Positions 3,764 through 17,325 of a stretch of 64,000 nt of DNA are shown here, piece after piece. Location of the stretch: NCBI RefSeq assembly GCF_947331465.1, contig NZ_CAMZOK010000001.1, positions 1,426,001 to 1,490,000 of the forward strand. The letters run 5' to 3'. Position numbers and translations under genes: made by a program. The number at the start of each line of letters is the position of its first letter. Position 1 is the stretch's first letter. The notes under the pieces were generated by a model. It worked only from the letters and a program-made list of their open reading frames with translations, had not been told where the DNA came from and did no database searches. Source of the stretch: Shimia sp. Alg240-R146 (GTDB taxonomy: Bacteria; Pseudomonadota; Alphaproteobacteria; Rhodobacterales; Rhodobacteraceae).

Positions 3764-5304
3764 TGGATGTGTTTTGGGACGCTGTGAGCGCGTTTCGGTT
3801 TCTGCGTCCGGCGGTTTTGGCGATGCTGCTGCCAATCGGTTTGCTTTGGTGGGGCATTCGGCGACGAATGGTGCGACCTGAGCAAGCGACACAGGGCATG
3901 GCACCACATCTGGCGCGCGCCCTGACAGTTGGCGAAGGTGCAAGCCAGCGTATTGTGCCGATTGACGGCGTTGCGATGTGCCTGATCCTACTTAGCCTTG
4001 CTGCGGCGGGGCCGTCGTGGAGTCGTGTGCCCAATCCGTTGCTGGCACAAACCGCGCCGTTGGTTGTCGCGCTGGAAGTCAGCCGGTCGATGGAGGCGCC
4101 GGATTTGCCACCCAGTCGGCTTGAGCGGGCGAAATTCAAAATCCTTGACCTTGTGCAAGCGCGCGCAGGGGCGCGAACGGGGTTGATTGCCTATGGTGGA
4201 ACAGCCCATCAGGTGGCGCCGCTCACCGAAGATCCGAATGTGTTGCGTGTGATGTTGGAGGCTTTGTCGCCCGCGGTCATGCCGACGCCGGGGGAAAACG
4301 CGACCGACGCGCTTGCGCTGGCAAAAGCCGCTTTGGAAAGCAACCAGACGCCCGGCGCGATCTTGTTTGTGCTGGACGATTTGAGCGCGACGGATGCCCC
4401 AGCTTTCGCCGCAGAGATGGAGGCCGATGGCGTGCCGGTGATCTTTTTGGTGGCAGCACCAAAAGGCGAGGCGATCGGTGCTTTGGAACGGCTACCCGGC
4501 GCCACGATCGTACCACTGAGCGCGGATGACGCGGATGTCAAAGCCATAGAGCGGGCGACGGCTTCGGCATATCGGGCTGCGCTTTTAGGAGACGAGCGTC
4601 TGGAGTGGGATGATCGGGGCTGGGTTTTCGGCTGGTTGGCGATGCCGCTGTTGCTGATTTGGTTTCGGCGCGGATGGACGATGCGCTGGGCGGTTTATGT
4701 TTTGCTGTTGGGGGGGGGCATAGCGCCGTCACCGGTGCGGGCAGATGTGCTGGATTGGTTTTTCACGCCGGACCAGCGCGGCATGATGGCCTTTCGCGAT
4801 AAGAACTATACCGACGCGGCGGAGTTGTTTCAAAACCCGATGTGGCGTGGCTATGCGCTCTTCAAATCGGGCAATTATGAAGAGGCCGCCGAGCATTATG
4901 CCCGCATCGACACGCCAGAGGCCGCATTTGCCGAGGGCATGGCGCGCCTTAGAAACCGCCAATACAGGCCTGCGATTGCAGCCTATGAGAAGGCTTTGAC
5001 ATTGCGTCCGGATTTCGCTGAGGCCGAATGGAACCTGCAGGTCAGTCGCGCAATTCTGGAATATGTGGAAGCGACGCGTGAAGCAGGCGACACCGGCGAA
5101 GAAGCAGGCATCGGTGCGGATGACGTTGTGTTTGACAATGAAGCCAAACGTGGGGCGCAGACGGACTCGGATTTTTCCGAACAGGAAGATGCGCCGGCGC
5201 CGATGCAGACTGCCGAGCAGTGGATGCGGTCGGTGGACACCGATATGGGGGATTTTCTGCGCACCCGATTTGTGCAGGAGAATGCCGCGAGGGATCAGCC
5301 ATGA
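3760..5304 (+). CDS. VWA/TPR membrane protein, BatB-BatC type
   Basis: 514 residues from the ATG at 3760, chosen because GGAGGG lies just upstream and it overlaps the previous stop (ATGA). Order: N-terminal membrane helix, VWA domain, further membrane helices at about 290-330, then tetratricopeptide-like repeats (around residues 345-430, for example GNYEEAAEHYARID and RPAIAAYEKALTLRPDFAEAEWNL), and an acidic tail. This is a fusion of BatB and BatC functions. The MIDAS motif reads EVSRS instead of DxSxS, so the first metal ligand is glutamate; metal binding may be altered. Partner of the BatA-type protein and BatD. Confidence 0.88.
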   Translation: MMDVFWDAVSAFRFLRPAVLAMLLPIGLLWWGIRRRMVRPEQATQGMAPHLARALTVGEGASQRIVPIDGVAMCLILLSLAAAGPSWSRVPNPLLAQTAPLVVALEVSRSMEAPDLPPSRLERAKFKILDLVQARAGARTGLIAYGGTAHQVAPLTEDPNVLRVMLEALSPAVMPTPGENATDALALAKAALESNQTPGAILFVLDDLSATDAPAFAAEMEADGVPVIFLVAAPKGEAIGALERLPGATIVPLSADDADVKAIERATASAYRAALLGDERLEWDDRGWVFGWLAMPLLLIWFRRGWTMRWAVYVLLLGGGIAPSPVRADVLDWFFTPDQRGMMAFRDKNYTDAAELFQNPMWRGYALFKSGNYEEAAEHYARIDTPEAAFAEGMARLRNRQYRPAIAAYEKALTLRPDFAEAEWNLQVSRAILEYVEATREAGDTGEEAGIGADDVVFDNEAKRGAQTDSDFSEQEDAPAPMQTAEQWMRSVDTDMGDFLRTRFVQENAARDQP

Positions 5305-6551: not shown

Positions 6552-6709
6552 CCGCATGCAACGCCAGAAAAGTTTCTCACTTTGTTTGCCAATGCGAGCT
6601 TTGCGTCCCTTTCATGCTAACGCATAGTTTGCGAGTGATTGAATTGACCTCCCGCGACGCCAAACAGGCGATGCTCAAAGCCACATGTCGGTGGCCAAAA
6701 AGGAACACT

Positions 6710-8668
6710 ATGGTTTTCAGGCGTTGTAACAGCGTGTTTCTTTGGATCTTTGCCTTATGCGTTGGTGTGGTTTTTGGATCGGGCGGGCCCGTAGTCGCGC
6801 AACAATTGAACGGCGAGACGCCAGCTTATCTCGGGTCCAAAGCCTGTGCGGACTGCCACACGGAGGCTTACTCGGCATGGCAAGACTCACACCATGCAAA
6901 TGCTTGGCGGCTTCCGGGACCTGACACTTTGGTGGGCGCTTTCAAAGGCGAGACGTTTTCCGACAACGGTATGCAAGCGACCTTTGCCAGAAATGCAGAT
7001 GGCTTGGCTGTTACCGTGCAGGAAAGTGATGGTAGCACCACCATTTACAGGGTGCATTCTGTCGGTGGCGTGCATCCGTTGGAACACCTGATACTAGAGA
7101 CCGGCGATGGCTTTTTGCAGAGTTTTGATATTGTCTGGGACGTGGAGCAGCGGCGTTGGTACCATCTTTACCCGGATCAGGATTTGCCGCCTGTTGATGG
7201 GTTTCACTGGTCGGGCGCGTACAAAAACTGGAACGCACGTTGCGCGGAATGCCACGCCACGGGATTTGAAAAAAACTACGACTTCGGAAACCGCAGCTAC
7301 GCCTCAACACAAGTTGAAATCGGTGTGGGGTGCGAGGCCTGTCACGGCCCTGGATCGGCCCATGTGGCCATTGCCGAGACGCTCGCAGCTGACGCGTCAA
7401 TGAGCGGACCGGAGTTCTGGGGATTTGCCGAAGTGTTGTCCAATCCGCAAGGTCAGATGGCGCAATGCGCGGGATGTCACGCGCGGCGCGAAGCTTTTGG
7501 CAACGGCAACCCAGTACCGGGCGTAGCTTTTGCAGACAGCTATAATCTCGCGATGTTGCGCCCGGGGCTTTACCACGCGGATGGGCAAATCCTCGACGAG
7601 GTCTACGTCTACGGGTCGTTTTTGCAGTCAAAAATGCACCAAAAGGGCGTAACTTGCGCCAATTGCCATACACCGCACGCCGCGACGACGGTTGCTGACG
7701 ACAATGCGGTTTGCACGCAATGTCACTCCGAAGCGGGCAATCCGGATTTCCCAAGCCTGCCCTTGGCCGAGTATGACAGCGAGGCGCACACCCATCATCC
7801 ACAAGACAGCGATGCCGCGAAGTGCGTGAATTGCCATATGACGGATCAGGTCTATATGGGCATCGATGCTCGACGCGATCATAGCTTTCGCGTGCCGCGT
7901 CCGGATCTAAGCGACGTGCTTGAGACGCCAAATGCCTGCACAACCTGCCACACCGACCAAGCCGCCGCATGGGCCGCAGACAAGATCAAAGCATGGTTCC
8001 CTGACGGACAATGGCAGCAGCCTCATTATGGCGAGGTTCTTGCCAAAGGGCGGCGAAGCCCGACGTCGGCCGCGCCCGAATTGTTGGGGTTGGCCCAAGA
8101 TTTTGCACAGCCTGACATCGTGCGTGCGACCGCGCTGTGGCTCCTGCGCGACGGGGCCATCAGCCTTGACGTCTCCGACTTAGGTGCCTTCATGGATGAT
8201 GCGGATTCACAAGTGCGCGTCGCAGCTATTTCGGCATTGCGCCAACGCGCGTCGGTGATCTCGGAGCCCTATTTGATCCGCGGATTGAACGACAACACCC
8301 GCGCTGTTCGGATTGCGGCCGCGCGCGCGATCCTAAGCCAGCAGCCAGGGCGTATGTCTGACGGCATTCGCGCACAGGTCGGCAAGGCCTATGCGGAGTT
8401 GGGCAGCGTTTTGCGGCATCAAATGGATTTCGCAGAGACCCACCTGCAAGTCGGCGGGTTTTCGATGGTCGCGGGCAACGTTCCGGCGGCAATTTCCGCA
8501 TTGAGCGAGGCGGTGCGCATTAACCCGCAAAATCCGCAAGCCTGGCACAGCCTTGTTCGAATGGTGGCGCAGACAGAAGGTCTGGAGGCCGCGCGAGAGC
8601 TTATGCGACAAGCGCTGTCGTTCAATCCAAACGACATCAGCTTGTTGTCTTTGGCGGCTGAATTTTAG
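6710..8668 (+). CDS. Secreted octaheme c-type cytochrome with HEAT and TPR repeats
   Basis: 652 residues from the ATG at 6710 (AAGGA upstream; the first residues form a signal peptide ending near VVAQQ). Eight CxxCH heme motifs are visible: CADCH (46-50), CAECH, CEACH, CAGCH, CANCH, CTQCH, CVNCH and CTTCH, all in the first two thirds. Then come HEAT-like repeats (VRVAAISALRQRA, VRIAAARAIL) and a TPR-like end (AAISALSEAVRINPQNPQAW). It is a periplasmic electron-transfer or redox enzyme related to the cytochrome c554-like multiheme group; an enzyme of nitrogen or sulfur oxide chemistry is possible but unproven. It follows the MoxR/Bat genes on the same strand, so it may be their client. Confidence 0.85.
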   Translation: MVFRRCNSVFLWIFALCVGVVFGSGGPVVAQQLNGETPAYLGSKACADCHTEAYSAWQDSHHANAWRLPGPDTLVGAFKGETFSDNGMQATFARNADGLAVTVQESDGSTTIYRVHSVGGVHPLEHLILETGDGFLQSFDIVWDVEQRRWYHLYPDQDLPPVDGFHWSGAYKNWNARCAECHATGFEKNYDFGNRSYASTQVEIGVGCEACHGPGSAHVAIAETLAADASMSGPEFWGFAEVLSNPQGQMAQCAGCHARREAFGNGNPVPGVAFADSYNLAMLRPGLYHADGQILDEVYVYGSFLQSKMHQKGVTCANCHTPHAATTVADDNAVCTQCHSEAGNPDFPSLPLAEYDSEAHTHHPQDSDAAKCVNCHMTDQVYMGIDARRDHSFRVPRPDLSDVLETPNACTTCHTDQAAAWAADKIKAWFPDGQWQQPHYGEVLAKGRRSPTSAAPELLGLAQDFAQPDIVRATALWLLRDGAISLDVSDLGAFMDDADSQVRVAAISALRQRASVISEPYLIRGLNDNTRAVRIAAARAILSQQPGRMSDGIRAQVGKAYAELGSVLRHQMDFAETHLQVGGFSMVAGNVPAAISALSEAVRINPQNPQAWHSLVRMVAQTEGLEAARELMRQALSFNPNDISLLSLAAEF

Positions 8669-8825
8669 CGGGGCAGGCTTTTTTTGAAACGCTGGACCTG
8701 ACAAAATGACGGCCTGCGTGTGACGTGGGAATTTGGCGGCGGGATTTTGCAGGACTTAGCCCTAGGCAAAAAGGGCGCGTAAGCGGTGATTGAATAATGC
8801 AATCCGCTGCTGCATTGTCCGCGCT

Positions 8826-9929
8826 ATGGAATTTTTAGACTTCGGACATAACCCGTGGCTTGTGGCGGTTTCTTTTGTCGTGGCACTGGTCGCAGGCGCC
8901 ACTGGTCTTTCGTTGACGCGGGACCTTTCGGAAAAGTCGGTGCCACAACGTAAGTTGGCCATCGCGTTAGGGGCCATCGCGTTGGGCGGCGGGATCTGGT
9001 CAATGCACTTTGTGGCGATGCTGGGTCTGAAGCTGCCGATCTTGTTTTATTATGACGCGGCTATCACGCTGGCATCCGCGTTAATCGCAATCTTGATGGT
9101 GGCGCTTGCGTTGGTGCTGCTGCATTTCGTGCAGCGCACACCGGTCACCATTGGGGCCGCAGGGGCGATAGTTGGCGCAGGCATTCTCACAATGCATTAT
9201 GTCGGCATGGCGGGAATGCAGTTGTGCCGCCCAATTTACACCGTGTCCGGCGTCGTTGGATCGTCGGTTTTGGCCATTGCGCTTTGTGTTCTTGCGATCG
9301 GGGTTGCCTATGGTGTGCGGTCTAACCGGACCATAGTGATCGGCACGTTATGTTTCGGCGCGGCGGTGTTCTCGGTGCACTTTCTGGCAATGCAGGGGAC
9401 CAATTTCGTCGCGCTCGACAATATTCGCGAATTTGGGCCGATGATTAGCAATGAGGTCATGGCGGTCGGCGTGATCCTGTCGAGTTTCGTGATCTTTGGC
9501 GCCTTCTTGTGGGTTGGGACGACCTATCTGGTTCCTGCACAAGGGGGGGCGTCGGAGACCTCTCTGTCAGACCCAATCGATCCTGATACCTTTGAGCCGG
9601 CGGTGGCGCGTATTCCTTGTGAACGGGATGGCGGCAAAGTCTTTATCGCGGCGACGGATGTGGTGTTCGTGCGCGCCGACGGGCACTACACCCAAGTCTA
9701 CACGAAGACGGACAAATACTTTTGTGTTTGGCCGATCACCGAAGCGGTCAAACGGTTGGTGCCATGTGGGTTCTTGCGGGTGCATCGCAGCTATCTCGTG
9801 AACCCAAAGAAAGTCGTGCGGTTTGAGCGCAGCAAAGACAAAGGGCAATGCACCTTTGGCGAGGGAGATTTGCCTCCGGTGCCGGTCAGTCGCTCCAACC
9901 TCAAAGAGGCGCAGACCGCCTTCGGGTGA
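8826..9929 (+). CDS. coxC: MHYT-LytTR membrane regulator of CO oxidation (CoxC type)
   Basis: 367 residues from the ATG at 8826, where the MHYT domain begins (MEFLDFGHNPW). Residues 1-230 hold seven hydrophobic helices with repeated motifs MHFVAM, MHYVGMAG and VHFLAMQG; in the MHYT family these histidines and methionines at the membrane face are proposed to bind copper and sense a diatomic gas such as O2, NO or CO. The C-terminal 100 residues are a LytTR DNA-binding domain (VRADGHYTQVYT, FLRVHRSYLVNP). The same MHYT-LytTR fusion is known as CoxC/CoxH in carboxidotrophic Oligotropha. It lies just upstream of coxM with a tandem repeat in between, so it probably controls the cox genes directly. 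Confidence 0.85.
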   Translation: MEFLDFGHNPWLVAVSFVVALVAGATGLSLTRDLSEKSVPQRKLAIALGAIALGGGIWSMHFVAMLGLKLPILFYYDAAITLASALIAILMVALALVLLHFVQRTPVTIGAAGAIVGAGILTMHYVGMAGMQLCRPIYTVSGVVGSSVLAIALCVLAIGVAYGVRSNRTIVIGTLCFGAAVFSVHFLAMQGTNFVALDNIREFGPMISNEVMAVGVILSSFVIFGAFLWVGTTYLVPAQGGASETSLSDPIDPDTFEPAVARIPCERDGGKVFIAATDVVFVRADGHYTQVYTKTDKYFCVWPITEAVKRLVPCGFLRVHRSYLVNPKKVVRFERSKDKGQCTFGEGDLPPVPVSRSNLKEAQTAFG

Positions 9930-10076: not shown

Positions 10077-10931
10077 ATGATTCCAGCTGCCTTTGAATAC
10101 TATAGACCCAAGGATATGGCGGGCGTCTTGTCCGTCCTTGAGGAGCATGGAGATGATGCGCGCGTCGTGGCGGGAGGGCACAGCCTGATCCCGATGATGA
10201 AGCTGCGCATGGCCGAGGTGCCGCACCTGATCGACTTGCAGGATGTGGCGGGATTGACCGGCATTTCAATCGATGCAGGACGCGTTCGCATCGGTGCGAT
10301 GACGACCCAGCATGAAATCATCAATCACGCGGGCCTGTCCGACGTCGCACCCATCATGCGTGAAGCGTCGCTTCAGATCGCCGATCCACAGGTTCGCTAC
10401 ATGGGCACTGTTGGCGGCAACGTTGCCAATGGGGATCCGGGCAATGACATGCCGGGATTGATGCAGTGTCTCGATGCCACTTTCATTTTGGTGGGGCCGG
10501 ACGGTGAACGTTCGGTTGCCGCACGCGACTTTTATGAAGCCGCCTACATGACAGATCGCGCGGACGATGAAGTTCTGACAGCGGTCGAGTTTGCGGCATC
10601 AAAGGGCGGGTACGCCTATGAAAAGCAAAAACGCAAGATTGGTGACTATGCCACCGCGGCGGCGGCTGTGCTGATCACCAAAGACGGCGGGACATGCGCG
10701 TCAGCCTCGATTGCAATGACCAACCTTAGCGACACGCCGGTCTATTCGGTAGATGCGGGCGCGGCCCTTGTTGGGACGTCTTTGGATGAAGCGTCCATGA
10801 AAGCCGCTGTCGACGCGATGTTGGGAGACATCGATCCGACAGAGGACAACCGTGGCCCGATTGAATTCAAACGCCATGCAGCGTCGGTCATCCTGCGTCG
10901 CGCCATCGAAAACGCCTGGGACAGGGCCTGA
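10077..10931 (+). CDS. coxM: Aerobic CO dehydrogenase medium (FAD) subunit
   Basis: 284 residues from the ATG at 10077, preceded by a strong AGGGAGGAGAGG site. FAD-binding motifs of the molybdenum hydroxylase medium subunit are present: AGGHSLIP at residues 32-39 and [11 protein letters not shown] further on. The subunit takes electrons from the iron-sulfur subunit to FAD and passes them to the quinone pool. It is the first of the M-S-L structural genes, the order typical of form I (true) CO dehydrogenase clusters rather than the S-L-M order of form II homologues. 22 bases separate it from coxS. Confidence 0.95.
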
Positions 10932-10953: not shown

Positions 10954-11448
10954 ATGTCGAACAAAAAACACTTTAAACTGACCGTGAACGGCGAGGAGCA
11001 AGAGTTTCTGGCTGAGCCGCGTGAACTGTTGATCCACACATTGCGTGAGCGCCTGCGTCAAACAGGTCCTCACATTGGGTGTGAGACGTCACATTGCGGT
11101 GCCTGCACGGTGACGATGAACGGAAAATCGGTGAAAGCCTGCACCGTGTTTGTTGCCCAAGCCGATGGGGCAGACATCACCACCATCGAAGGTCTGGGCA
11201 ACCCTGACAGCCTGCACGTTCTGCAGGAAGCGTTCAAAGAGCACCACGGGTTGCAGTGCGGTTTCTGCACGCCGGGTATGATCACCCGCGCGTCCAAACT
11301 TCTGGAAGAGAACCCGACGCCAACCGAAGAAGAAGTTCGGTTTGGCATGGCCGGCAATATCTGCCGCTGCACCGGGTATCAGAACATTGTGAAATCCATC
11401 CTCGCTGCGGCGAGTGAGATGAATGCAGCCAAGGAGGCGGCAGAATGA
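10954..11448 (+). CDS. coxS: Aerobic CO dehydrogenase small (2Fe-2S) subunit
   Basis: 164 residues from the ATG at 10954, with GAGGAGAGAG just before it. Cysteines 43, 48, 51 and 63 form the plant-ferredoxin-type [2Fe-2S] site (CETSHCGAC) and cysteines 102, 105, 137 and 139 the second, helical [2Fe-2S] site (CGFC, CRC). It relays electrons from the molybdenum-copper centre in CoxL to FAD in CoxM. The stop overlaps the coxL start by four bases, so the two are coupled. Confidence 0.96.
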
Positions 11449-13871
11449 ACAAGGAGCTAACCCGCGAGGAACGCACCGACGCGCTGGGCGGCATGGGCTG
11501 CAAGCGCAAACGCGTTGAGGACGCCCGTTTCACCCAAGGCAAAGGCAACTATGTCGACGACATCAAACTGCCCGGCATGTTGCAGGGTGATTTTGTGCGC
11601 TCGCCCTATGCGCACGCTCGGATCAAATCGATCGATAGCAGCGCTGCAATGGCTTTGGACGGTGTGATTGCCGTTCTGACTGCCGAAGATCTTGCGCCGC
11701 TTGGTTTGCATTGGATGCCAACTTTGGCGGGCGACAAACAGATGGTTCTGGCTGACGGCAAAGTGCTGTTTCAAGGTCAGGAAGTCGCGTTTGTGGTCGC
11801 TAAGGACCGTTACATCGCAGCGGACGCTGTGGAACTGGTTGAAGTGGACTACGAAGAGCTGCCGGTTCTGACAGATCCGTTTGCGGCAATGGAGTCCGAC
11901 GTGGTTCTGCGCGAAGACCTGCTTGGCGAAGGCGGTAGCCTGCCGGACGGGGCTCATGGCCCGCGCAAACACCCGAACCATATTTTCACGTGGGAAGTTG
12001 GCGAGAAAGACGCCACCGAACAGGTGTTGGACGAGGCTGACGTGGTGGCCGAAGAAACGGTTTACTACCACCGCACGCACCCGTGCCCGCTTGAAACTTG
12101 CGGCTGCGTGGCGTCGATGGACAAGGTCAACGGCAAGCTGACATTGCATGGCACTTTTCAGGCACCGCACGCGATCCGCACCGTGGTCAGCCTGATTTCC
12201 GGCATTGAAGAGCACAACATCCGTGTGATTTCGCCCGACATCGGCGGCGGCTTTGGCAACAAGGTTGGGGCCTATCCCGGCTATGTCTGCTCGGTGGTGG
12301 CTTCTATCGTGACCGGCGTTCCGGTGAAGTGGGTCGAGGACCGGATGGAGAACCTGATGACCACGGCATTCGCGCGGGATTATCACATGACCGGCAAGAT
12401 TTCGGCCACCAAAGAAGGCAAAATCACTGGCCTGCATTGTCACGTGACAGCGGACCATGGTGGCTTTGACGCCTGCGCCGACCCGACCAAATTCCCGGCG
12501 GGTTTCATGAACATCTGCACGGGCTCATATGACATCCCAACTGCTTATTTGGCGGTGGACGGTGTCTATACCAACAAAGCGCCGGGTGGGGTCAGCTATC
12601 GCTGTTCCTTCCGCGTGACGGAAGCGGCCTATTTCATCGAGCGCATGGTCGAGGTTCTGGCGATCGAGTTGAATATGGACGCGGCAGAGCTGCGCCGGAT
12701 CAACTTTATCAAGAAAGAGCAGTTCCCGTATCAGTCCGCGCTTGGGTGGGAGTACGACTCCGGTGATTATCACACCGCTTGGGACAAGGCGCTGAAGGCT
12801 GTGGACTATGACGGTCTGCGGGCCGAGCAAGCCCAGCGTGTCGAGGACTTCAAAGCTGGCAAGACCCGCAAGTTGATGGGCGTTGGCCTGACGCATTTCA
12901 CCGAAATCGTCGGGGCAGGTCCGGTCAAGAATTGCGACATTCTTGGGTTGGGTATGTTTGACAGCTGCGAAATTCGCATCCACCCGACAGGGTCTGCGAT
13001 CGCGCGTCTGGGGACAATCTCGCAAGGTCAGGGTCACGCCACAACCTTTGCGCAGATCCTCGCAACCGAGATCGGCCTGCCTGCCGACAGCATTACGATT
13101 GAGGAAGGCGACACCGATACGGCGCCGTATGGTTTGGGCACCTATGGGTCACGATCTACACCGGTTGCTGGTGCGGCCACGGCGATGGCTGGTCGTAAAA
13201 TCCGCGCCAAGGCGCAGATGATTGCGGCCTACTTGCTGGAAGTGCACGATGACGACGTCGAATTCGACGTGGATCGGTTTGTGGTCAAAGGCGCGCCTGA
13301 GAAGTTCAAGACGATGAAGGAAATTGCCTTCGCCGCCTACAATCAGGCCATTCCGGGCATCGAGCCAGGTCTGGAAGCGGTCAGCTATTATGATCCGCCC
13401 AACATGACCTATCCGTTTGGCGCTTATGTCTGTGTGATGGACATCGATGTGGATACCGGTGTGACAGACATTCGCCGCTTCTACGCGCTGGATGACTGTG
13501 GCACGCGCATCAACCCGATGATCATCGAAGGGCAGGTGCATGGCGGTTTGACCGAGGCGCTGGCCGTCGCGTTGGGGCAAGAGATTGCTTATGACGACAT
13601 GGGTAACGTCAAGACCGGCACATTGATGGACTTCTTCCTGCCGACAGCGTGGGAAGTGCCAAACTATGAAACCGATCACACCGTGACCCCCAGCCCGCAC
13701 CATCCGATCGGTGCCAAAGGTGTGGGTGAAAGCCCCCATGTGGGCGGTGTGCCGTGTTTCTCCAATGCGGTGAATGACGCCTTCCGGGCCTTTGGGCTGC
13801 GTCACACCAACATGCCGCACGACCATTGGCGCATCTGGAAGACCGCCAACGATCTGGGCCTGCACGGCTAA
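11445..13871 (+). CDS. coxL: Aerobic CO dehydrogenase large (Mo-Cu) subunit, form I
   Basis: 808 residues, the usual length for CoxL. It binds molybdopterin cytosine dinucleotide and holds the Mo-S-Cu site that oxidises CO with water to CO2. The active loop reads SYRCSFR with the copper-ligating cysteine at residue 387; this is the form I motif AYxCSFR with serine for the first alanine. Cofactor segments [15 protein letters not shown] and the late GVGES (catalytic glutamate) are intact. Start is coupled to coxS and has AAGGAGG upstream. The cysteine loop and the M-S-L order argue for a genuine CO dehydrogenase rather than a form II homologue (AYRGAGR). Confidence 0.96.
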
Positions 13872-13926: not shown

Positions 13927-14802
13927 ATGACCTGGACCGATCTGCAAACTGCCCTGGCGGCACAGAACTATGTGGCATCTGACGATTTGGCAGTGTCTTT
14001 GCATCTTGCTTTGTCGTTGCAACGTCCATTGCTGCTTGAAGGCGCAGCCGGTGTTGGCAAGACAGAGGTTGCCCGCGTGTTGGCCGCCGCTCAGGACAGC
14101 AAGCTGATCCGGTTGCAGTGCTATGAAGGGCTCGATGCGGCGCAGGCGATTTATGAATGGAACTATCAGCGTCAATTGCTGGCAATCCGCGCGTCGGCTG
14201 AGGCGGGCGAGACCGGTAAAGACGTCGAAGACAGGATTTTCTCCCGCGACTACCTGCTGGAACGCCCTTTGCTGGCGGCGATTACGCAAAAAACGTCACC
14301 GGTCTTGTTGATTGATGAAATCGATCGTGCGGATGAAGAGTTCGAGGCGTTCTTGTTGGAGGTCCTTGCTGACTATCAAATCACCGTGCCGGAATTGGGC
14401 ACAATCCCCGCGACCAGCGTGCCGACCGTGATTCTGACGTCAAACGGCACCCGCGACTTGTCGGATGCGTTGCGGCGTCGGTGTCTGTTTGCCTATGTCG
14501 AGTATCCCGACCGCGCGACGGAATTGGCGATCCTGCAAGCACGGTGTTCAGGGATTGAAGCCCGGCTTGCGGATCAAATCATCGGCTTTGTGCAGAACCT
14601 GCGCAAAGAGGAGCTGGAAAAAACACCGGGCATTGCGGAAACGCTTGATTTTGCCGCCGCTCTGGCAGGGCTGGGCATAGCGGATCTGACCACAGATCCC
14701 GCCACCTTGCAGGCCACGCTGACAACGCTGCTGAAAACTCAAAGCGACCGCGCCCACATTACCACCGAAGTTGCACAGCGCCTTGCCGGGAAAGCGGCAT
14801 GA
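13927..14802 (+). CDS. coxD: CoxD, MoxR-type AAA+ ATPase for CODH maturation
   Basis: 291 residues from the ATG at 13927, 55 bases after coxL. Walker A is GAAGVGKT (39-46), Walker B is LLIDEIDRAD at about residue 130, followed by the sensor segment ILTSNGTRDLSDALRRRC. In Oligotropha CoxD is a membrane-associated ATPase needed to introduce sulfur and then copper into the apo active site together with CoxE and CoxF. The frame is open further upstream, but the family starts at MTWTDLQ. Its stop overlaps coxE by four bases. Confidence 0.93.
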   Translation: MTWTDLQTALAAQNYVASDDLAVSLHLALSLQRPLLLEGAAGVGKTEVARVLAAAQDSKLIRLQCYEGLDAAQAIYEWNYQRQLLAIRASAEAGETGKDVEDRIFSRDYLLERPLLAAITQKTSPVLLIDEIDRADEEFEAFLLEVLADYQITVPELGTIPATSVPTVILTSNGTRDLSDALRRRCLFAYVEYPDRATELAILQARCSGIEARLADQIIGFVQNLRKEELEKTPGIAETLDFAAALAGLGIADLTTDPATLQATLTTLLKTQSDRAHITTEVAQRLAGKAA

Positions 14803-15986
14803 GCCGTGTTACCCGCTTTGCGGGTCGTGACCCCGGTGCCTCGGCGCGTATGGCGGGATTTATGGCGCATTTGCGCGACAACGGTCTGCGTCTCGGTGTG
14901 CAGGAAACCGAGGCGGCGCTGTCGGCGTTGACCTTCGTAGACGCAGCCAATCCGGACCAATCACGCCATGCACTCAAGGCCGTCTGCACCGGCTGCAAGG
15001 ACGAGGCGCTGCGGTTTGATGCGCTGTTTGACGCCTTTTGGATGGATGCGGGACGTGTCCGTCAAAAGGTGGTGCCCAAGATGATGCCCGCTGCCAAAGG
15101 CGATGACAGCGTAAAATCCTCACGCGACGCCAAAGGTCAGGACGCTGGAGGCGCCGGAGAGGCCACCGCGCCTGAAGGTGGCGACGGTGACGCGGACAGT
15201 GATGGAGAAGGCAAGCTGATTGCCACCGAGGTGCGCAACTTGTCGCGCCGCGACCTGCGCGATCTGGTGCGCGCCGAAGAAATTGCCGAGGCGGAAGCCG
15301 TTGCCCGTCGCCTTGGTCTGGCGTTGCGCGACCGCCGCTCACGCCGTCGGATCGCAGCCCGCAAGGGTGACCGCCTGCATTTCCGCAAGACCATCCGCCG
15401 CAGCCTTGCGACGGGCGGCGAACCGGTGCGACTGATCAAGCGCAAACGTCCGGACCGCAGCCGAAAGATTGTCACGCTTTGTGACGTATCTGGATCGATG
15501 AGTGTTTATGCGCAGGTGTTTCTGGCGTTTCTCGCAGGGCTGATGCGCAGCGATCCCAGTGCGGATGCCTATCTATTTCACACCCGGCTTGTGCGGATCA
15601 CCGAAGCGCTGCGCGACAAAGATGCGATGCGCGCGATTGGGCGTATGTCGTTGATGGCGGACGGGTTCGGGGGCGGCTCAAAAATCGGCGAAAGCCTTGA
15701 AAAATTTGCCAACACTTATGCGCGAAAGTTTGTCGATGGCCGGTCCGTGGTCATGATTTTCTCGGATGGCTATGATACGTCGGATCCGGATCGGCTTGGC
15801 GCTGCTTTGGCCACATTGCGCAAACGAGGGTGCCGCATCATTTGGCTCAACCCCCTAAAAGGTTGGAATGACTACGCCCCTGTGGCTGCGGGCATGGCCG
15901 CCGCGCTTCCCCATCTGGATCGTTTTGCCGCCGCCAACACTTTGGCGGACCTTGCGGCATTGGAAAAGGAGCTGGTGACACTATGA
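14799..15986 (+). CDS. coxE: CoxE, VWA-domain CODH maturation protein
   Basis: 395 residues. The C-terminal half is a CoxE-type VWA domain with an intact MIDAS motif DVSGSM beginning at residue 229; a charged, low-complexity linker lies at about 105-145 (KGQDAGGAGEATAPEGGDGD). It is the VWA partner of the CoxD ATPase; the pair is required for the copper step of active-site assembly. Start and stop both overlap neighbouring genes by four bases (ATGA), so D-E-F are translated as a coupled set. Confidence 0.93.
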   Translation: MSRVTRFAGRDPGASARMAGFMAHLRDNGLRLGVQETEAALSALTFVDAANPDQSRHALKAVCTGCKDEALRFDALFDAFWMDAGRVRQKVVPKMMPAAKGDDSVKSSRDAKGQDAGGAGEATAPEGGDGDADSDGEGKLIATEVRNLSRRDLRDLVRAEEIAEAEAVARRLGLALRDRRSRRRIAARKGDRLHFRKTIRRSLATGGEPVRLIKRKRPDRSRKIVTLCDVSGSMSVYAQVFLAFLAGLMRSDPSADAYLFHTRLVRITEALRDKDAMRAIGRMSLMADGFGGGSKIGESLEKFANTYARKFVDGRSVVMIFSDGYDTSDPDRLGAALATLRKRGCRIIWLNPLKGWNDYAPVAAGMAAALPHLDRFAAANTLADLAALEKELVTL

Positions 15987-16762
15987 CCCCTGCAGAGTTT
16001 CTAGACACCGATCTTGCGCGAACCGTCAGCGCCCTGCGCGATAAGGAAGAACCGTTTGCCTTTGCCACCATTGTGCGCACGGCGGGCACCACCGCGGCCA
16101 AACCCGGTGCGAAGGCCATTATTGGCGCCGAAGGCGTGATCCTTCATGGTTTTCTCGGCGGCGGCTGCACCCGCGGTGCGGTCAAACGCGCCACCCTCGC
16201 AGCGCTCAACTCCGGCGAGCCGCAACTGGTGTCTGTTGCGCCTGAAGATTTTTTGAACGAGATCGGGGTCAGTGCAGGCGCGATGGTGGACGGGGTGACG
16301 TATGCGCGCAACGGCTGTCCGTCTCGCGGCACAATCGACATTTTCATTGAACCCTGCCTGCCGATGCCCGAATTGACCGTGCTTGGCGCGTCGCCTGTGG
16401 CCGAGGCGCTTGCCGAGTTGGCGCCGCATTTTCACTGGTCTGTTTCCAGAGCTGTTGAGACGCCTGTCTTGGCCGGGAAATTGCAGGCGACTGTTGTTGC
16501 CACGCAAGGACAAGGCGATCTGGTTGCGCTGCAAGACGCGCTGCAACAAGGCGCGCGTTACGTAGCTTTTGTGGGTAGCCACAAGAAATATGCCTCTTTG
16601 TCGAAGAAACTCGCAGACGCAGGCGTGTCGCAAGATGACATCAAACGCGTGGTCGCGCCTGCGGGGCTCGATATAGGCGCCGTAACGCCTGAAGAAATCG
16701 CGCTCTCGATCTTGGGTGAATTGATCCAAATACGCCGAAGGCATCTGGAAAGGGGGGCATGA
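15983..16762 (+). CDS. coxF: CoxF, XdhC/CoxI family maturation protein
   Basis: 259 residues of the XdhC family. The N-terminal XdhC/CoxI part carries GGCTRGAVKRA, followed by a Rossmann-like part (ELTVLGASPVAEAL) and the C-terminal HKKYASLSKKLADAG segment common to XdhC proteins. XdhC-type proteins hold the molybdenum cofactor and assist its sulfuration before insertion into the large subunit; CoxF plays that part together with CoxD and CoxE. Overlaps coxE by four bases and is itself overlapped by the micropeptide ATG. Confidence 0.88.
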   Translation: MTPAEFLDTDLARTVSALRDKEEPFAFATIVRTAGTTAAKPGAKAIIGAEGVILHGFLGGGCTRGAVKRATLAALNSGEPQLVSVAPEDFLNEIGVSAGAMVDGVTYARNGCPSRGTIDIFIEPCLPMPELTVLGASPVAEALAELAPHFHWSVSRAVETPVLAGKLQATVVATQGQGDLVALQDALQQGARYVAFVGSHKKYASLSKKLADAGVSQDDIKRVVAPAGLDIGAVTPEEIALSILGELIQIRRRHLERGA

Positions 16763-16854
16763 TGCGTAAACTGCTGAAACGTATAGCTCGACGTTTGACG
16801 CCTTCCGCGGAGCAGGCCGAAGTTCTGGCCAAGATAAAATTTCCCTGTTGCTGA
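16759..16854 (+). CDS. 31-residue Cys-Cys-ended micropeptide overlapping coxF
   Basis: A short frame begins with ATGATG at 16759, overlapping the coxF stop (ATGA) exactly as coxE and coxF overlap their predecessors, and has AGGGGGG immediately upstream. It encodes 31 residues: a strongly basic amphipathic start (MMRKLLKRIARR), a middle helix (SAEQAEVLAKI) and the end KFPCC. It ends 18 bases before coxG. I do not recognise it. Coupled position and ordered composition argue for translation; a paired cysteine could bind copper, which the CODH site needs, but that is speculation. Confidence 0.5.
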   Translation: MMRKLLKRIARRLTPSAEQAEVLAKIKFPCC

Positions 16855-16872
16855 CGAAAGAAAGGAAACGCC

Positions 16873-17325
16873 ATGGAATTGGCTGATGAAATCACAATCA
16901 ACGCGCCCAAAGAGGCGGTGTATGCGGCCCTAAACGATCCTGAGATCCTGAAGCAGTGTATCCCCGGTTGCGAGGAGTTGATCAAGAAGTCTGACACGGA
17001 GTTGGAGGCCAAAGTTGTCCTCAAGGTCGGGCCGGTCAAAGCCAAATTCACCGGCGATGTGGTGTTGAACACAGAAGGCGCGCCGGACGCATTTTCCCTG
17101 ACGGGACAAGGCAATGGCGGCGCAGCCGGACACGCCAAAGGAGGCGCGGATGTTGTCTTGGTCACCGATGGTGATCAGACTATTTTGAGGTATGAGGCCA
17201 AAGCCCAGATCGGCGGGAAACTGGCACAGCTCGGCAGCCGCTTGATTCAAAGTACGGCCAAGAAATTGGCGGCTAAGTTCTTCAAATCGTTTGCGGATGT
17301 AATGGCGGAAGATCCTGTCGCCTGA
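16873..17325 (+). CDS. coxG: CoxG, SRPBCC-fold CODH-associated protein
   Basis: 150 residues of the CoxG family, starting MELADEITINAPKEAVYAAL with the sequence PEILKQCIPGCEE typical of the lipid-binding SRPBCC fold. AAAGGAAA lies upstream of the ATG. CoxG helps attach CO dehydrogenase to the membrane, and in mycobacteria it has been shown to carry quinone to the enzyme. The long C-terminal tail seen in some CoxG proteins is absent; here only the core domain remains. Last gene of the cluster, followed by a hairpin. Confidence 0.92.
   Translation: MELADEITINAPKEAVYAALNDPEILKQCIPGCEELIKKSDTELEAKVVLKVGPVKAKFTGDVVLNTEGAPDAFSLTGQGNGGAAGHAKGGADVVLVTDGDQTILRYEAKAQIGGKLAQLGSRLIQSTAKKLAAKFFKSFADVMAEDPVA

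Follow-up and report, generated by a model that had tools for sequence, protein, structure and literature searches.

The window analysed here, a 64,000-nucleotide stretch of Shimia sp. Alg240-R146 (Rhodobacteraceae; NCBI RefSeq assembly GCF_947331465.1, contig NZ_CAMZOK010000001.1, positions 1,426,001 to 1,490,000 of the forward strand), carries a form I (Mo-Cu) carbon monoxide dehydrogenase (CODH) operon on the forward strand, in the order coxM, coxS, coxL, coxD, coxE, coxF, a micropeptide gene and coxG (Table 1). The cluster is of form I, with CoxL above the TIGR02416 cut-off and bearing the YRCSFR motif, which fills invariant columns 385-390 of the CoxL alignment. The micropeptide gene, our subject, opens at an ATG (16759) that shares an ATGA with the coxF stop (TGA 16760-16762), runs for 31 codons and closes 18 nucleotides before coxG. 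Its coordinates, its overlap with coxF and its length, as first described in a reading of the letters without database searches (hereafter the sequence-only reading), were all confirmed in the sequence, a likely ribosome-binding site stands just upstream, and the same overlap pattern recurs as that reading had said, with ATGA starts at coxS/coxL (11445), coxD/coxE (14799) and coxE/coxF (15983). A second in-frame ATG at 16762 would give a 30-residue product and may be the true start, which relatives appear to favour because a Val codon precedes the corresponding ATG in loci L002-L004.

The micropeptide frame is selected as coding sequence. In 47 of 58 FPCC-type members (11 did not fit an ungapped C-terminal pattern and were dropped), the synonymous (pS) and non-synonymous (pN) differences over the last 17 codons are 0.728 and 0.225, respectively (pN/pS 0.31), and over the last five codons, KFPCC, they are 0.858 and 0.028, the very synonymous-substitution bias and retained end by which the sequence-only reading had proposed to recognize a real gene; pN is higher than pS in both of the remaining forward frames. 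Stop codons vary among the 58 members (TGA 25, TAA 23, TAG 10), and an RNA element beneath the codons was rejected because synonymous sites vary freely. Of the 69 peptides parsed, 54 end in FPCC and 11 have one added basic residue at the end (FPKCC, FPRCC, HPKCC, HPRCC or YPRCC); that all 69 end in Cys-Cys is by construction, as the search pattern demanded it, and the invariance of both cysteines in our 63-row alignment likewise reflects selection of rows by that end, with the F and P conserved at 90% or more. Natural variants in which one cysteine is replaced, spotted by eye, lie before coxG in L216 (KFPSC) and L110 (FPRSC). The micropeptide is almost certainly a real conserved protein, and we infer that it is translated, on the same message as coxG.

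Searched with the single peptide, a set of 100 related genomes yielded 18 with a match at E ≤ 1; the same frame adjoins cox genes in 14 of them, and in the other four (G081, G086, G017 and G034) the match lies away from the cox locus. The 21 of these 100 genomes with coxL above its cut-off comprise the 14 matched, four with a divergent FPKCC form recognized by reading the gap (G014, G003, G012 and G017), one in which the peptide is absent (G029) and two that were unreadable. Family-wide, a profile built from 20 peptides matched 62 of 394 genomes (393 genera) at E ≤ 1e-3, and 61 of the 62 are among the 101 genomes whose coxL scores above the form I cut-off. The 62nd (G368), a partial match whose fetched 6 kb contains no cox genes, was set aside, as was a match in G379 (E 3e-8) that ends FSRCCDD and lies about 43 kb from its coxL; this peptide-like frame, MRRLQIARLRRRFGLTEEQARTLAPMVFSRCCDD (L150 at about 5000-5100; G379:C1:2111420-2111515, minus strand), has no cox genes beside it.

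The stretch after coxL was read in 95 of the 101 form I genomes, almost all of different genera. Five were excluded for contig ends (G325, G308, G162, G041 and G407), and G032 because neither coxF nor coxG was matched in the 5.6 kb after its coxL, an incomplete form I gene lying where the contig begins (L028; G032:C300:1860-7500). Scored in this way, 63 loci have coxG and the peptide, three the peptide alone, 12 coxG alone and 17 neither, where 'without coxG' denotes no tblastn match at 1e-6 in the fetched stretch, mostly 7.5 kb past coxL (in L144, one such locus, only about 850 nucleotides lie between coxF and the contig end). The frame is present, that is, in 66 of 95 form I clusters and in 63 of 75 with coxG nearby; adding four same-genus FPKCC loci gives 67, 3, 12 and 17. 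Among the counted peptides, L111 has no ATG, GTG, TTG or CTG start in its frame, a TTG start was chosen for L104, and L156 has only CTG. In a set of 80 named loci, partly overlapping the first, 72 have coxG and 67 of those have the peptide, five have coxF without coxG and none of the five has the peptide, and coxF was not found in three, two of them contigs that end early. The third, L207 (uncultured Tateyamaria sp. isolate 4-94), has a form I coxL and no coxF match despite about 8 kb following.

The absence of a conserved frame, or frameshifts and stops within it, was looked for in related cox clusters and is not the rule, the exceptions being 12 of 75 coxG-bearing family loci without the peptide, some of which show remnants or changed ends. 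Five named coxG loci fail the peptide pattern: L216 has a whole peptide ending KFPSC, L240 has LPCC plus five residues, L202 resembles a decayed remnant, and nothing was found at L195 and L253. At L088, FPCC stands before coxG in a frame without a stop that runs into coxG, possibly a fusion or a decayed copy. Among 385 alphaproteobacterial genomes (form I coxL in 16, 12 of them outside Rhodobacteraceae), the profile gave nine matches at E ≤ 0.01, and all six outside the family end before the Cys-Cys columns. The single-sequence search yielded two weaker Cys-Cys-ended matches outside the family, in G081 (three internal stops) and G086 (within a 524-residue frame), neither at a cox locus; these and a second match in G030, all weak and away from cox genes, were taken as chance.

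That the gene would prove too short for annotation and be easily overlooked, as the sequence-only reading expected, is borne out by plasmid records: those of Roseivivax THAF197b, Roseivivax THAF40, Aestuarium and Pseudosulfitobacter list no gene at this place, and one of the five, that of Marivivens (NZ_CP018573), annotates it as a 'hypothetical protein' (WP_301547026.1). On pTHAF197b_a of Roseivivax sp. THAF197b (L022:3001-3300), the coxG match spans only 60 residues and is itself unannotated, with an intact, unannotated micropeptide beside it. Scans of 63 members gave best E-values of 0.0022 in Pfam (HTH_OrfB_IS605, three members; HA, four members, best 0.0091) and 0.054 in NCBIfam (one member), with bit scores set against curated cut-offs for the first member only. 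The two Pfam matches of the window peptide score 12.9 and 12.8 bits, under cut-offs of 21 and 24, and a helix-turn-helix or sigma-factor relative was discarded given the weakness of these matches. A PDB sequence search with the window peptide alone gave no match at E up to 1, and the micropeptide has no match to PF06240, the CoxG SRPBCC domain of about 140 residues, which its partner CoxG does match. Among the matches listed in a search of titles and abstract openings, with most subscription journals outside its reach, no report of the peptide was found; it goes unmentioned in the available passages of PMC4240915, PMC11962113, PMC13240472, PMC5036791 and PMC4103551, and the two papers matching 'KFPCC' are unrelated by title. 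By sequence comparison, the micropeptide is a conserved small-protein family of form I CODH clusters with no Pfam, NCBIfam or PDB relative found.

The placement of the gene ties it to coxG. The distance from its stop to the start of coxG is 11-19 nucleotides at 61 of 66 family loci and at 64 of 67 named ones, with a median of 13 in each set, and its start lies more than 250 nucleotides past coxF in 22 of 69 loci. In 27 of 67 named loci coxF is separated from the peptide by a gene for a MobA-like nucleoside triphosphate transferase (the copy at L031:13301-13912 matches PF12804), possibly the cytidylyltransferase of the molybdopterin cytosine dinucleotide cofactor. Because the peptide still adjoins coxG in all 27, it goes with coxG and not with coxF; a continuation or split-off part of CoxF was rejected on the same insertion and on five out-of-family CoxF proteins that lack the end motif. 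The sequence-only reading had linked the peptide to 'maturation genes coxF and coxG', a link that did not hold, given this association and, in the available passages of PMC4240915, the authors' conclusion that coxG takes no part in assembly of the Mo-Cu site.

Presence of the peptide also tracks that of coxG, at 67 of 79 loci with coxG versus 3 of 20 without (Fisher p 7e-9). On a tree of CoxD plus CoxE (100 rows, drawn midpoint-rooted, L067 long-branched), peptide-bearing loci are found to either side of the deepest division among the 99 rows other than L067, and forms with the extra basic residue fall on one side. This distribution suggests a single ancestral peptide with many losses (at least 18 changes), and we infer that the micropeptide was ancestral in the form I clusters of the family. 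Ten independent tree pairs differ in coxG, and over 200 random pairings the peptide differed in the same direction in a median of six, in the opposite direction in none and not at all in four. The peptide and coxG tend to be lost together, and the micropeptide is probably a functional partner of CoxG.

Helix analysis of 67 of the 69 peptides (two were too short) gave the N-terminal half a mean net charge of +4.4 (range 0 to 8), a helical periodicity that peaks at 90-100 degrees and a helical moment above the shuffle midpoint in 92.5% of peptides. Taken as a set, the peptides have the predicted properties of a basic amphipathic helix, and together with the codon test this upholds the conserved, coupled, basic amphipathic frame with a kept Cys-Cys that the sequence-only reading had described. 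AlphaFold models of two stop-read-through forms contain a pair of short helices, with the Cys-Cys end left loose. Membrane tethering would fit the sequence.

CoxG itself presumably carries CODH to the membrane, according to a passage of PMC4240915, which also describes coxG mutants of O. carboxidovorans as growing slowly on CO and having no particulate CODH. According to the available passages of two further papers, Sulfolobus CoxG homologues anchor a dehydrogenase at the membrane (PMC11962113), and CoxG is menaquinone-binding (PMC13240472, a survey of marine data that cites Kropp et al. 2025). Form I CoxG of the family measures 147-161 residues in the loci read. Of 11 CoxG matches in eight family genomes whose cox cluster lacks coxG, seven end in a linker and a KKKGWLKRL-like basic helix (L174, L176-L181). 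In Afipia, two Bradyrhizobium (identical protein accession) and Rhizobium SL42, CoxG has a KKGWLKK-like basic stretch, a hydrophobic span and Cys-Cys, and CoxG of L166/L273 (one locus) and L274 likewise has KKGWxKx, a hydrophobic span and Cys-Cys (for L274 on the CoxG end only); both elements of the micropeptide therefore recur in these tails. His and Cys stand close to the Cys-Cys in the tails of L030, L033, L037, L289, L273 and L274. None of the 13 hydrophobic CoxG tails of L275-L287, from the same order as L274, has Cys-Cys, and neither does the more distant kind of CoxG in Burkholderiales and L162. A 41-residue open reading frame after Bradyrhizobium coxG (WP_019200211.1) was considered as a counterpart and rejected, being dissimilar and without Cys-Cys.

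We propose, at roughly even odds and from sequence comparison, that the micropeptide acts in trans as an accessory of CoxG in the form I CODH of Rhodobacteraceae. Its basic amphipathic helix would lie on the inner face of the cytoplasmic membrane, the TPEQAxxLAxIKFPCC part would hold CoxG, or the CoxG-CODH pair, at the membrane, and the peptide would thereby replace in trans a C-terminal membrane tail found on many other CoxG proteins and missing from this one; the terminal cysteine pair might serve as a thiol site, binding Cu(I) or making a redox contact near the site of quinone loading. The idea of a membrane helix in trans for a tail-less CoxG derives from the helix data and the CoxG membrane literature, and this membrane-tail mechanism is somewhat less likely than not. 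Its fullest form, a CoxG tail made as a separate 30-residue protein whose terminal cysteines constitute a copper or redox site unique to the form I enzyme, is speculative and rather unlikely.

Several observations weigh against this proposal. The Fisher p-value ignores relatedness, and for the pairs test, which allows for it, p is only 0.03 at the median (range 0.004-0.6). Three of the 95 loci (L069, L101 and L156) keep the peptide without a nearby coxG, and their genomes have CoxG elsewhere (one each in G309 and G168, two in G059); conversely, 12 coxG loci have neither an intact peptide nor a CoxG tail. L164 and L168 have form I CoxG with long tails that lack Cys-Cys. CoxG is also tail-less in Shinella, R. 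jaguaris and Deinococcus, and no peptide was seen beside coxG of Shinella or Deinococcus (R. jaguaris was not searched for it), so a strict rule of exchange between tail and peptide was rejected because tail-less CoxG without the peptide exists. Nor is the peptide simply a cut-off CoxG tail, since it precedes coxG. Single peptides beat their own shuffles at p<0.1 in only 42% of cases, and AlphaFold does not place the peptide confidently on CoxG (residues 1-30 with a mean predicted local distance difference test score of 63-77 by block, predicted template modelling scores of 0.73 and 0.68, and a short tether).

A role in copper handling, in which the C-terminal cysteine pair would bind Cu(I) and hand it on, to either CoxF or CODH, for the Mo-S-Cu site, is a minority possibility. 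It would suit the company the peptide keeps with the copper-containing form I enzyme (coxL above the cut-off in 61 of 62 profile-matched genomes, with the G379 match off-locus and the 62nd partial) and the Cys-Cys in CoxG tails of several Hyphomicrobiales form I clusters, set against 0 of 13 in L275-L287. It would also suit one passage of PMC4240915, in which the CODH made by O. carboxidovorans without CoxG is Cu-deficient with fairly high Zn; another passage describes that enzyme as complete. Yet the peptide goes with coxG and not with coxF, an intact copy is absent from 29 of the 95 form I clusters read, and in the two natural variants, L216 and L110, one cysteine of the pair is replaced.

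Less probable again is a cis-acting leader, an arrest or reinitiation peptide that sets coxG translation and has no later role. The near-fixed position 11-19 nucleotides before coxG, whatever the upstream gene, would fit such a leader, a ribosome at the peptide stop would cover the coxG ribosome site, and a conserved C-terminal end behind a variable N-terminus resembles arrest peptides in general. Stop codon choice (TGA, TAA or TAG) and synonymous codons are free, however, the basic N-terminal half is kept, and the KFPCC/KLPCC frame survives in L069, L101 and L156 with no coxG after it, in L156 with only a CTG start; on the tree L069 pairs with L156 (support 81), with CoxD/E end branches of 0.25 and 0.38. 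As for a chance open frame without a product, the shortness of the gene and its mostly missing annotation speak for it, and its probability is close to nil: it is ruled out by the codon test (over the last five codons, pN is 0.028 and pS 0.858) and by conservation of the frame in 66 of 95 genomes read.

The closest likeness to the proposed accessory lies in the CoxG tails of Hyphomicrobiales form I clusters (Afipia carboxidovorans OM5 pHCG3, Bradyrhizobium and Rhizobium sp. SL42), with a basic stretch and Cys-Cys encoded in the same operon and on the same protein, CoxG; these differ in lying within CoxG, in the hydrophobic span before Cys-Cys and in having more residues after it, and no sequence homology is demonstrated. 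The KKKGWLKRL-type end within the family likewise puts a basic helix-like end on the CoxG fold, but it is covalent and without Cys-Cys, and by eye KKKGW is missing from the listed micropeptides. CydX of cytochrome bd is a small operon-encoded accessory of about 30-40 residues, encoded beside the subunit it serves and long missed by annotation. The micropeptide resembles it in these respects, but CydX is a transmembrane helix and the micropeptide, by eye, has no hydrophobic span of transmembrane length. Arrest leaders of the TnaC type are also short open reading frames right upstream of the gene served, with conserved C-terminal residues beside the stop; unlike them, the micropeptide has free stop codon choice, a conserved basic helix and three loci without the downstream gene. 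The KPCC copper site of Cox17-type proteins shares Pro-Cys-Cys after a basic residue, a likeness of only a few residues to a eukaryotic folded protein with further cysteines.

The marine CO oxidizers include Rhodobacteraceae that have form I CODH, and how the enzyme reaches the quinone pool is a matter of continuing study. If annotation has overlooked a conserved gene at this step, knock-out, expression and reconstitution work would be altered, and a synthetic coxMSLDEFG set modelled on these clusters would omit it. If the peptide is indeed a separate CoxG tail with a cysteine site, Mo-Cu CODH would have a previously undescribed micropeptide component, and the membrane electron or copper traffic of marine CO oxidation would depend on an overlooked gene.

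Table 1. Features of the cox operon in the window (positions counted from its first letter).
Feature	Position	Strand	Evidence and remarks
coxM, FAD subunit (start inferred)	10077..10931	+	PF00941, PF03450
coxS, 2Fe-2S subunit (start inferred)	10954..11448	+	PF01799, PF00111
coxL, form I large subunit, YRCSFR signature	11445..13871	+	TIGR02416 1396 bits, cut-off 991
coxD, MoxR-type AAA ATPase (start inferred)	13927..14802	+	PF07728; NF047784 MadB under its cut-off
coxE, VWA CoxE-like	14799..15986	+	PF05762 E 5.9e-60
coxF, XdhC family	15983..16762	+	PF13478, PF02625
Candidate ribosome-binding site of the micropeptide, purine-rich GGAAAGGGGGG	16747..16757	+	Within coxF 3' end; sequence
Micropeptide gene, MMRKLLKRIARRLTPSAEQAEVLAKIKFPCC, 31 residues	16759..16854	+	Stop TGA 16852-16854; conserved frame, pN/pS
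Codons of the predicted basic amphipathic N-terminal helix (MRKLLKRIARRL)	16762..16797	+	Helical periodicity and net charge (67 homologues); AlphaFold helix in both models
KFPCC codons, conserved end	16837..16851	+	Alignment of 63 rows; pS 0.858, pN 0.028
Likely coxG Shine-Dalgarno sequence, AAAGGA	16861..16866	+	In spacer; AAGGAGG stretch of at least 4 nucleotides in spacers of 60/66 loci
coxG, 150-residue SRPBCC protein without C-terminal membrane tail	16873..17325	+	PF06240 E 4.6e-34; PDB 8uds_D 'CoxG' E 2.3e-9

Immediately upstream of coxM, at 8790-9929, the window encodes a protein with MHYT and LytTR domains that is likely a CO- or redox-responsive regulator of the cox operon. Further upstream of the operon, at 6614-8668, lies a gene for a large multihaem cytochrome c554-like protein with tetratricopeptide (TPR) repeats.
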